This document shows positions 26,366 to 30,641 of a stretch of DNA of 54,531 nt, one piece after another. Below the pieces are notes generated by a model. That model made no database searches and was not told the DNA's origin. It saw only the letters and a program-made list of their open reading frames with translations. Source of the DNA: Spirochaetales bacterium (lineage in GTDB: Bacteria > Spirochaetota > Spirochaetia > DAHUYW01); NCBI GenBank assembly GCA_027314665.1, contig DAHVAK010000080.1:1-54531 (forward strand), in the 5' to 3' direction. The position numbers were made by a program, and so were the translations under genes. Within the stretch, counting starts at the first letter, position 1. Every line of letters begins with the position of its first letter.

Positions 26366-26449
26366 TTTTCTCGTTATTAGGTCAACACTTAATCCGTAAC
26401 TGCCGAAAATGTGAGGGGTTTGGGTGCACCGCACTCCCGGAGCATAGGG

Positions 26450-27913
26450 ATGGCCGCTGAAAGACAGCAAGAACTTGCTAAGAAATCGCAAACCACCTCG
26501 CAGCATGTCGCCTCTGCGTTCAGTCCGGAGGAGTCCGAGCTCGAGCAGTATGGAGTTTGGGTGAAAGAGGGTCCGGAAGACGTCGTCGGGCTCGACGAGG
26601 AGCTCGGCGAAGTGAGCGCTCCGGAGGGTGTGCTGACTGCCGAAGAGGAGGATCTGCTCGGGTCGCTCGAGTCCTCGGTCGGCGAGGAGCTCTCTCCCCC
26701 TTCTGAGACCAACGACGAGGGACTCGGGCTGGAAAATCTGGACGAAGACTTCTCCTTTGATCTCGAAGAGGAGCACCTGGAGCTCGACGAGCTTCCAGGG
26801 CTCGGCGAGGCCGCCGAAGAAGAGCTGTGGATCGAGAGCCCTCCGCAGGCTGCGGCCCCCGCAAGCCAGCCGGCAACCAGTTATACATCCCGTGAGGAAA
26901 CGGACCTCGAACCTATCGACGATCTGAGCGCCTTCGAGGCCGACCTCGCCGGTTCGAGCGAAGAGGGAGAATCCATGCGCATGCCAGATGGGTCGCAATC
27001 GATACTCCAAAAGATCGAGCAGGATCTCCTGTCGATCAAGCACGAGCTCGCGGCTCTGAAAACCGAGATCTCCAGTCTTCGGGAGACGGCCTCTCCCGCG
27101 AGGACCGACGAAAAGCCTAAAGAGGATGAGGCCGGATTCTTCGCAGAGGATGAGGATGAGACCATTGCCCTTACGGGTGATGAGCTCGACAACATCCTCA
27201 ACACCGCTGACATCACCGAAGAAACAGGCGAGCCTACCGTGGTGCCCGAGGATTCCGAGCTCATTGTCGAAGAGGCGACCCCGGAGCCTGAAATCCTGAT
27301 CGACAAGGACAACATTCTCGATCTCGAGGAAGAAGTCCCAGCCCCTGCCAAGCCAGCCCTGCTCGAGGCCGAAGACGAGGTTCCGATCGAGCTGCCGGAG
27401 GAGGAGATCATCCTGGAGGATCTTCCCGAGCCCGAGGCGGCGGAGCCCGAGCCGATGAGCCCGGAGGAGCTCGAGTCCTTCGACGAGATTCAAATCGATC
27501 TTCCCGAAAGCGAGGAGGCGGCGGGCATCGAGGAGCTGCCGGAGATAACCCTCGACGAGGAGGAGGACCAGCCCGTCGACATCGAGCTCGGCGAGGAGTT
27601 CGACCTTTCTTCGAGCGAGAAGGAAGCCCTTGCGAGTGAGACGCTCGACCTTGAGGAAGAGGAGCTTCTCGAGCCAGTCGAGCCCGTGAAGGCCACACAT
27701 TCCGCAACGACGACCGCCCCCGCCGCTCCGACGAAAGCTGCGCCCGCCGAGGAGGAGATCCCCGACGATCTCAAGACCGAGATCAAGTCGATCCTCAAAT
27801 ACATGGATCAGCTTCTCGAGGCGCTTCCCGAGGACAAGATCGAGGAGTTCGCGCGTTCCGAGTACTTCGAAGTCTACAAGAAGCTCTTTGACGAGCTAGG
27901 GCTCACCACCTAA
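26450..27913 (+). CDS. Highly acidic low-complexity protein (Glu/Leu-rich), uncharacterised
   Basis: MAAERQQELAKKSQTTSQH...; long EEE/LEEL-rich stretch and a compact C-terminus DDLKTEIKSILKYMDQLLEALPEDKIEEFARSEYFEVYKKLFDELGLTT. Confidence 0.8.
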   Translation: MAAERQQELAKKSQTTSQHVASAFSPEESELEQYGVWVKEGPEDVVGLDEELGEVSAPEGVLTAEEEDLLGSLESSVGEELSPPSETNDEGLGLENLDEDFSFDLEEEHLELDELPGLGEAAEEELWIESPPQAAAPASQPATSYTSREETDLEPIDDLSAFEADLAGSSEEGESMRMPDGSQSILQKIEQDLLSIKHELAALKTEISSLRETASPARTDEKPKEDEAGFFAEDEDETIALTGDELDNILNTADITEETGEPTVVPEDSELIVEEATPEPEILIDKDNILDLEEEVPAPAKPALLEAEDEVPIELPEEEIILEDLPEPEAAEPEPMSPEELESFDEIQIDLPESEEAAGIEELPEITLDEEEDQPVDIELGEEFDLSSSEKEALASETLDLEEEELLEPVEPVKATHSATTTAPAAPTKAAPAEEEIPDDLKTEIKSILKYMDQLLEALPEDKIEEFARSEYFEVYKKLFDELGLTT

Positions 27914-27914
27914 G

Positions 27915-28999
27915 ATGGGGTTACTCGAGCGACTCGCACGAAAACCGATTCTCTCAGGAGCCGCCGAAGGGCTGCTTCGCAGGGCGGCAAAGATTCGCGA
28001 ACACGGGGCTCCGCAGCAAGCCGGGGTTCCGGGGGAAGCCGGGCCTTCGCCGTCAAAAAAAAAAGCCCAGAGCCGTCGCTTCCTTCCGCCCCGCTCGACG
28101 CTCGCTCTCTCAGCGAGGCAATCGCCAGGCTTGAACCCGGACTCGATCTAGGGGGAGAGCTCTTCGCGCTCTACCGCGACGCCTTCCGAATCGACAAGGG
28201 AGCCCTTCTCCTTCCCGACGGAAACGAGGGGTGTTTCTCTCCGTGGGCGATAGCGGGGTTCGACCGCACGACCGAGCACCGCCTGCGCATCCCCGAGGAG
28301 TTCATCCTTTCCCTTTCCGGGATCGACGCGGGGGACGCAGCGGCGCTCGCTCCCAAGGAGATCCTCCCCCTCCAGGCCTACTTCTCGACGCGGGAGTTCG
28401 GTCTCATCGAGAAGCTCATCCTCGTGCCCTTCGTCGTCGGCGATCGGTTGGTCGCCCTTCTCCTTATCGCTCGTGGGCGGCCCCTCCCATCGGATGGGAC
28501 CGAAACGATCCATCGCCTCGAGGAGTCGGCGCTGATCGCTGCCCCGCTCATCCGGCGGTCGCGCACCGTCATCCGAACGGAGGGTCCGCTCGAGCCTCAG
28601 GGCGATCTCGGCGCCCGCCTCGGAGAGCTCGTTGCGGAGGCCGCCGCCGACAACCGTTTCATCCTCTTCGTGAAGCTGGATGTCGCCGAGATCACGGCTG
28701 CCCTCCCCTCCCACGGAGTCGGGTTGGATCCCTATCACCTGCGCAAGGACATCGTGCGCGTCCTCTCCTCGATGGTGTCCGGAACCGGCGAGCTCATTCG
28801 ACTCAGCCCGACCCGACTTCTCCTGACGCTGTCGAGCCGCGTCTCCCACGATCGGGAGCTCATCGTCCACCAGATCTGCGCGGGCCTGAGCTCTCTCTTT
28901 GGCGCCAAGCTCGAGCCGGCACAGCTCCACATCCGCTCATGGAGCTATCCACAGGAAACCCTTTCCGCCAATGAGCTCATCTCCCAGGTCAGCCAATGA
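27915..28999 (+). CDS. GAF-like/degenerate GGDEF-like protein, reading frame interrupted at an A10 tract
   Basis: ATG 27915 gives MGLLERLARKPILSGAAEGLLRRAAKI...PSPSKKK. After A10 (28055-28064) the -1 frame continues SPEPSLPSAPLDARSLSEAIARLEPGLDLGGELFALYRDAFRIDKGALLLPDG...SQVSQ* to 28999. Confidence 0.75.
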
Positions 29000-30641
29000 A
29001 TTTCCGATCCGCTTCGCGCGCTCTCGCGCGGGCGAAGTCTATGCCGAGGCTTCCGGGATCCGCATCCACTCGGCCTACGATCCCCGGCGAGAGGCTCGCA
29101 GATTCGTAGAGGCCCAGACAGCCGATCCCTCCCCCGCCACTTGGGTTGTTCTCGGGGAGGCCCTCGGCTACCTCACCGAGGCGATCCGGGAGCGCTCGCC
29201 GCAGGCGCGAATCCTTCCCATCAGCTATCATGCGCAGCTCGTCGGAGCCGAGAGCAAGACGGCCTGGTCACCGGCATCGCGTGAGACAATCGAGGCCTAC
29301 CTGACACGCTCCCTCGGCGAGCTTGAGATCGAGGGGCTGAAGGTGATCGAGTGGGCGCCCTCGGGCGCCGCCTTCCCTCGCGAGGCCCAACGCGCGAAGG
29401 CGGCAGTCGCCCAGGCGGTGCGCGAGCTGTCGGGAAGCCTGACGACGACGCGCGCCTTCGGCCTGCGTTGGGCACGCAACTGCCTCGCAAACTTCCTCGC
29501 GCTTGAGGATCGGCTCGAGTCCGCGAGCCTCGGCGCGCTCTCCCCCCTGCGACGGCTCGCCGTGGTCGCGGCGTCGGGTCCCTCTCTCGCCGAGGCGCTG
29601 CCGATCCTCAAACCCCTGCGCAAGAGCATCCTGCTCATCTCCTTGCCCTCCTCCCTGTCCGCCCTCGCCGCGGCGGGGCTGAGGCCGGATCTTGTCGTCG
29701 CTACCGATGGGGGAAACTGGGCCTCCCTCCATCTGGCGGAGGTCGCTCGCCTTCCCCCCGGGGAGAGGCTGCCCCTCGCGATGCCCCTGTCGGCAGCCCG
29801 CGGATCCTGGCATACCGGCGGGCCCCTCCTTCTTCTTACCCAGGCCACCCTCTTCGAGCGGGAATTGCTCGCAGAAAGCCGCCTGTCCGCGATCCCTATC
29901 GCTGCGCACGGGACCGTCGCGGCAGGGGCTCTCGCGCTCGCGCTCCTCCTCACGCGGGGACCGGTGGTCGTCGCGGGACTCGATCTCTGCTTTCGCGACA
30001 TCCTTGAGCATGTCCGTCCGCACACCTTCGATTCGATATGGGAAAGAAGAGAGTCCCGGCTCGCTCCCGCCTACAGCGCGCAGTTTCAACGGGCGATGGA
30101 GCGCTTGGAGCGCGCGAGCGAGGGTGAGTCGTTCGCCGCGCGCACCTCGCATGCCTTTCGGGCCTACGCCGGATGGTTTGCCGGGCTCGCCGACAGCGAG
30201 GGGCGCCTCTTCCGCCTGCACCCATCGCCGATCGCTCTCCCCGGCTTCACTCCGCTCGACGGAGACGCCCTCCGAAGGCTCAGCGGCGAAGCCGCGAGGT
30301 GCGAGCCGCGCACGCGACTGCCCTTCGGAGAGGCGGCCGCGGTCCCCCGCGAAAGGCGCGCCGCGGCGGCAGCGGCGGTTCTCGCCCGGATCGAGGAGCG
30401 ACTCGCACTCGGACGCCGCGCGCTCGGCAATCCTCCTCGCTCCGGCGGAAAGGACTCAGGCGAGCTCCCGATCCAACCTGAGCTCGGCGAGCTCCTCTAT
30501 GAGCTGGACACGGCGGGCCTGCTCGAGACGAAACGAGCGGCGCGAGTCGAAGGCCTCGAGGCAGGGCGCACGAGGCTGTTCGCATCCATCGAGAGCGCCG
30601 AGGCCCACATCGCGCAGATGCGAGCCCACTACCTCGGGTAG
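28971..30641 (+). CDS. DUF115 / 6-hydroxymethylpterin pyrophosphokinase MptE-like protein
   Basis: RRLAVVAASGPSLAEALPILKPLRKSILLISLPSSLSALAAAGLRPDLVVATDGGNWA...VVVAGLDLCF. ATG 28971 overlaps the upstream gene. Confidence 0.75.
   Translation: MSSSPRSANEFPIRFARSRAGEVYAEASGIRIHSAYDPRREARRFVEAQTADPSPATWVVLGEALGYLTEAIRERSPQARILPISYHAQLVGAESKTAWSPASRETIEAYLTRSLGELEIEGLKVIEWAPSGAAFPREAQRAKAAVAQAVRELSGSLTTTRAFGLRWARNCLANFLALEDRLESASLGALSPLRRLAVVAASGPSLAEALPILKPLRKSILLISLPSSLSALAAAGLRPDLVVATDGGNWASLHLAEVARLPPGERLPLAMPLSAARGSWHTGGPLLLLTQATLFERELLAESRLSAIPIAAHGTVAAGALALALLLTRGPVVVAGLDLCFRDILEHVRPHTFDSIWERRESRLAPAYSAQFQRAMERLERASEGESFAARTSHAFRAYAGWFAGLADSEGRLFRLHPSPIALPGFTPLDGDALRRLSGEAARCEPRTRLPFGEAAAVPRERRAAAAAAVLARIEERLALGRRALGNPPRSGGKDSGELPIQPELGELLYELDTAGLLETKRAARVEGLEAGRTRLFASIESAEAHIAQMRAHYLG

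Follow-up and report, generated by a model that had tools for sequence, protein, structure and literature searches.

An apparently ancient, probable poly-A slippage site in a GAF/GGDEF-like gene of spirochaetes

Is a gene that breaks exactly at a run of ten A's damaged, misread or programmed to be read in two ways? The question is raised by a contig of an uncultured member of the Spirochaetales (GCA_027314665.1, contig DAHVAK010000080.1), which was analysed over its whole length of 54,531 nucleotides, hereafter the window. A preliminary description based on the sequence alone had noticed that an open reading frame ends shortly after an A10 tract, whereas a GAF-like plus GGDEF-like protein continues in the -1 frame without a convincing start codon of its own, and had left programmed slippage, phase variation and a sequencing indel open as explanations. 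As shown below, the same break at the same run recurs in more than 40 spirochaete species, and the A10 tract is thus almost certainly a deliberate slip site, which allows one gene to make a short and a long protein, rather than a sequencing error or a dead gene.

Re-examination of the sequence confirmed the observation in every detail (Table 1). The start codon of the gene directly follows the TAA stop codon (27911-27913) of the upstream gene, and the -1 frame is open from the run to a TGA at 28997-28999; one added A or a -1 slip would fuse both parts to a protein of 361 amino acids. No ATG, GTG or TTG is found in the -1 frame before a GTG at position 28424, which lies deep inside the domain. 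The run is the only A or T homopolymer of eight or more in the window (three overlapping matches, 0.13 expected by shuffling), and the 3.64 Mb draft genome contains only three runs of A10 or longer.

Table 1. Positions of the features of the locus in the window
Feature	Position	Strand	Description	Basis
Upstream gene of the operon	26411..27913	+	Acidic protein of 500 aa with a hyperconserved C-terminus (DLKxEIKSxLxYMDQLLExLPEDKIEEFA...FEVYKKLFDELGL); exact start not tested	Abuts the gene in slip-type and continuous loci
Frame-0 ORF	27915..28151	+	78 aa; conserved MGLLxRL...GLLRRA tail, ends 28 codons after the run; predicted short product	Same N-terminal motif opens 35/44 slip-type and 62/70 continuous orthologues
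Proposed A10 slip site	28055..28064	+	Phase TCA AAA AAA AAA	Comparison of orthologues
Frame-0 stop	28149..28151	+	TAG	Sequence
-1 frame ORF	28064..28999	+	311 aa plus stop; C-terminal part of the predicted 361-aa slipped product	Sequence; no own start codon before 28424
GAF-like domain	28100..28576	+	Limits approximate, transferred by alignment	Predicted structure
Degenerate GGDEF-like domain	28604..28996	+	No GGDEF signature; limits approximate	Predicted structure
Downstream gene of the operon	28971..30641	+	DUF115/MptE-like protein; proposed start ATG 28971 overlaps the -1 ORF by 29 bases	PF01973, E 9.6e-17

The protein family is recognised neither by Pfam nor by NCBIfam, and a sequence search of the PDB gave no family either; however, the reading as a GAF-like plus GGDEF-like protein is borne out by a predicted structure. 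The module of one orthologue is predicted with a pLDDT of 93.8, and its best match among solved structures is PelD (4etz), which consists of a GAF and a degenerate GGDEF domain, followed by GAF domains. The match to PelD amounts to about 13% identity, with a low TM over both domains together. The GGDEF signature is absent in nearly all members of the family, and the domain is therefore probably a binding and not a synthesising domain. No systematic test of the RxxD site of PelD-like c-di-GMP receptors was made and c-di-GMP binding was not tested, and ligand and role are unknown. In a naturally fused orthologue, the N-terminal tail is predicted to form two short helices (residues 3-11 and 24-38) and a low-confidence linker, which are followed by a confident two-domain module.

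Since the window is part of one draft genome of 299 contigs and homopolymers are error-prone, an indel in the assembly had to be considered first, and conservation of the run in close relatives had been proposed as a test in the preliminary description. The only other member of the order in the genome collection, which belongs to the same genus, encodes an orthologue with 44% identity, which has the same ATG, the same A10 in the same phase and the same -1 continuation, with frame 0 stopping four codons after the run. The flanks of the run have badly diverged between the two (54 of 140 and 40 of 99 aligned positions are identical), while the ten A's are untouched. A search for related loci with the single protein found nothing, and the sequences were too divergent for broad alignments, whereas a narrower alignment could be built. 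Searches of 198 and 395 genomes of the class identified the family in 82 and 151 of them, respectively. After removal of duplicates, 44 distinct orthologues from 16 family groups were found, in which the N-terminal ORF, MGLLxRA-like in most, and the GAF-like part lie in different frames; two more are located at contig ends. All 44 require a -1 change, and the run is A10 in 40 of them, A9 in one, A11 in one and A12 in two. A local sequencing indel is thereby refuted, as independent assemblies carry the same A10 in the same net frame. A decaying pseudogene is equally unlikely, since the domain stays conserved and free of stops down to 20-30% identity.

It had also been asked beforehand whether homologues are continuous across the junction, with two consistently separate proteins named as an outcome that would speak against slippage. 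About 58 orthologues encode the same kind of tail and the same domain in a single frame without a run of nine or more A's, and about 12 carry an in-frame run of A10 to A13, where slips in either direction mostly meet a stop within some 20 codons; many of these in-frame runs are, however, found in AT-rich genomes, where they mean less. A single-contig genome of 2,472,645 bases has the gene in one frame with an in-frame A10 at a GC content of 0.63. The upstream gene precedes the gene in 43 of 43 slip-type and 66 of 66 continuous loci, and the DUF115 gene follows in 43 of 43 and 66 of 67, respectively, so that these genes are orthologues. The upstream protein joins an acidic, low-complexity body to a C-terminal stretch of about 50 residues that is nearly unchanged across the class; its function is unknown, and Pfam has no match. 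The alternative that the locus encodes two separate proteins, a leader peptide and a GAF protein translated from its own start, finds some support in 10 of the 44 slip-type loci, which have an ATG, GTG or TTG in the GAF frame before the domain. However, 34 of 44, including the gene in the window, have none, about 58 orthologues encode one fused protein with the same tail, and the kept A run would have no explanation, which makes this reading very unlikely.

Homopolymers mutate fast, and phase variation, in which the sequenced genomes would represent the OFF state, therefore has to be considered as well. A quick tree of 104 sequences showed that the slip state needs at least ten changes, and that whole clades are purely slip-type: in the family groups f28 (8/8), f40 (6/6), f41 (7/7), f43 (8/8) and f1 (2/2), every genome is out of frame by -1 at A10, without a scatter of in-frame lengths, whereas a switching locus would be caught in the ON state in many genomes. 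Only one genus (g6) mixes states and carries an in-frame A10, an in-frame A11 and an out-of-frame A10 in different genomes, which makes it a good place to study how the slip state changes. Phase variation is thus strongly disfavoured, although a few A9, A11 and A12 cases exist and variation within populations was not measured. Many deep branches of the tree are weak, and the tree does not tell gain from loss; a spread this wide suggests an old state with repeated losses, but this is an inference.

Several observations argue that the run is under selection. In 31 slip-type loci with a GC content of 0.5 or more, no other A or T run of nine or longer is found in 107 kb. In the gene of the window, the domain uses no AAA and six AAG codons for lysine, yet the run is pure A, and AAG is the preferred lysine codon in 13 slip-type loci. 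The product of the AAA frequencies over the 44 orthologues is about 10^-40; this is not a probability, because the sequences are related, but it shows the direction.

Slippage could occur during transcription or during translation, and both would make the same two proteins. Programmed ribosomal -1 frameshifting of the dnaX type is possible, since the change is always -1, every run contains the heptamer A_AAA_AAA, and many loci in which the run lies in codon phase 1 contain A_AAA_AAG, a motif that is among the most efficient in E. coli (PMC4066793). However, seven bases would suffice for this process, yet none of the 44 out-of-frame members has fewer than nine A's or a shorter A6G-type site. 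Furthermore, SD-like sites are not enriched upstream (11/44 against 8/44 in a control interval), and folding energies on both sides of the run are near the shuffled expectation, with a mean z near 0; pseudoknots were not modelled. All three codon phases occur among the A10 cases (phases 1, 2 and 0 in 26, 9 and 5), and two loci of one clade differ in phase, so length and net frame are kept while the phase drifts. Nine A's is the length at which selection against slippage becomes visible in many bacterial genomes (PMC1088944). We therefore favour transcriptional slippage with reasonable confidence and consider ribosomal frameshifting possible but less likely; neither has been shown by experiment, no RNA, read-level or protein data were examined, and most of the genomes are metagenome-assembled.

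Taken together, the interpretation as programmed slippage, one of the three options of the preliminary description, is supported. In the model we propose, RNA polymerase slips on the A10 tract and adds one A, or makes an equivalent change, in a fraction of the transcripts. Unslipped mRNA would give the conserved helical tail plus a few residues, whereas slipped mRNA would give the full-length protein, in which the same tail is fused to the GAF plus degenerate GGDEF module. The out-of-frame junction and its conservation, the near-invariant run, the natural fusions and the conserved operon are read directly from the sequences; in contrast, it is inferred that the slip happens at transcription, how often it happens (15-55% in measured bacterial cases, PMC4256274), and that its purpose is to set the ratio of short to full-length protein, possibly with an effect on the downstream DUF115 gene. 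Such a coupling is possible but not specific to slip-type loci, as the DUF115 start overlaps the ORF end about equally in slip-type (10/21) and continuous loci (14/29), and tight overlap was thus rejected as the reason for slippage. The purpose of the short product is unknown, and lineages with a continuous gene do without it, showing that the full-length form alone can suffice; lineages with an in-frame run could make the two products from the other direction.

The other coding A10 of the genome (positions 6068-6077 of contig C31; 1501-1510 of the retrieved locus) lies in the same layout in an unrelated gene. An upstream frame of about 400 codons with a membrane-anchor-like segment ends one codon after the run, and the -1 frame continues as a LytR-CpsA-Psr protein (PF03816, E 8e-30). 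In 248 genomes of the class, homologues show A9 or A10 needing -1 in seven family groups (f1, f2, f11, f12, f28, f30 and f37), in-frame A10 or A11 near the same place in several others, and a continuous gene without a run in the rest, including the same-genus relative described above. In the genome of the window, in three others (G011, G002 and G036) and in most f12 genomes, the frame-0 stop follows at once (the run, then CTGA). Most of the other A9 sites of the genome lie outside clear slip junctions, several of them beside hairpins that look like terminators of the other strand, and an in-frame A9 on contig C269 (1816-1824 of the retrieved locus) lies within a few codons of a possible start of an open frame of more than 500 codons and was not examined further; a full census of slip junctions was not made. 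Two unrelated genes with the same junction in one class point to a general habit, not a one-off. It is tempting to speculate, though only tentatively, that Spirochaetia use RNA polymerase slippage at A9-A10 as an ancient, general regulatory device between N-terminal and C-terminal modules of at least two unrelated genes, the GAF/GGDEF-like gene and the LytR-CpsA-Psr envelope gene, so that the ratio of short to long products could shift in both together under conditions that alter slippage, such as NTP pools, elongation speed or temperature.

Programmed transcriptional slippage is an established mechanism, which in bacteria is mostly known from insertion sequences, a few secretion genes, dnaX and endosymbiont genes; its proposed ancient use in two genes of spirochaetes appears to be new. 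In the open-licence part of PubMed Central, searches for slippage or programmed frameshifting in spirochaetes found no report of either gene, and the GeneTack survey held only 10 spirochaete genomes (PMC3711429). A site kept as exactly A10 across a bacterial class, with the same kind of junction in a second unrelated chromosomal gene, would be among the most deeply conserved cases, and it comes with natural controls, namely fused orthologues without the run and orthologues with the run in frame, which makes it directly testable why a cell keeps a slip site instead of two genes. It also warns that annotation pipelines will tend to split these genes or call them pseudogenes.

Among characterised systems, dnaX of Thermus thermophilus (transcriptional slippage on A9) and dnaX of E. 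coli (ribosomal -1 frameshifting) likewise make two products from one gene through slipping on an A run. There, however, the shorter product arises by slipping from an open frame, whereas in the main arrangement described here it is the longer one, and no E. coli-type stimulators were found. In spa13 of Shigella (transcriptional slippage, reviewed in PMC5009743), a short frame-0 product, a longer slipped product and a downstream gene overlapping the end of the extension are found as well; its function is different, and the effect on the downstream gene is shown there and only conceivable here. In tssM1 of Citrobacter rodentium and tssM3 of Yersinia pseudotuberculosis, transcriptional slippage on a poly-A run makes two length variants; tssM1 makes the longer form by slipping, with about 20% slipped product from its A11, and tssM3 the shorter one (PMC4256274). 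Both arrangements also occur within the family described here, as out-of-frame A10 and in-frame A10-A13; however, tssM sites are not common among the tssM genes in that study, whereas here the site is kept across a bacterial class, in an unrelated regulatory-type gene.
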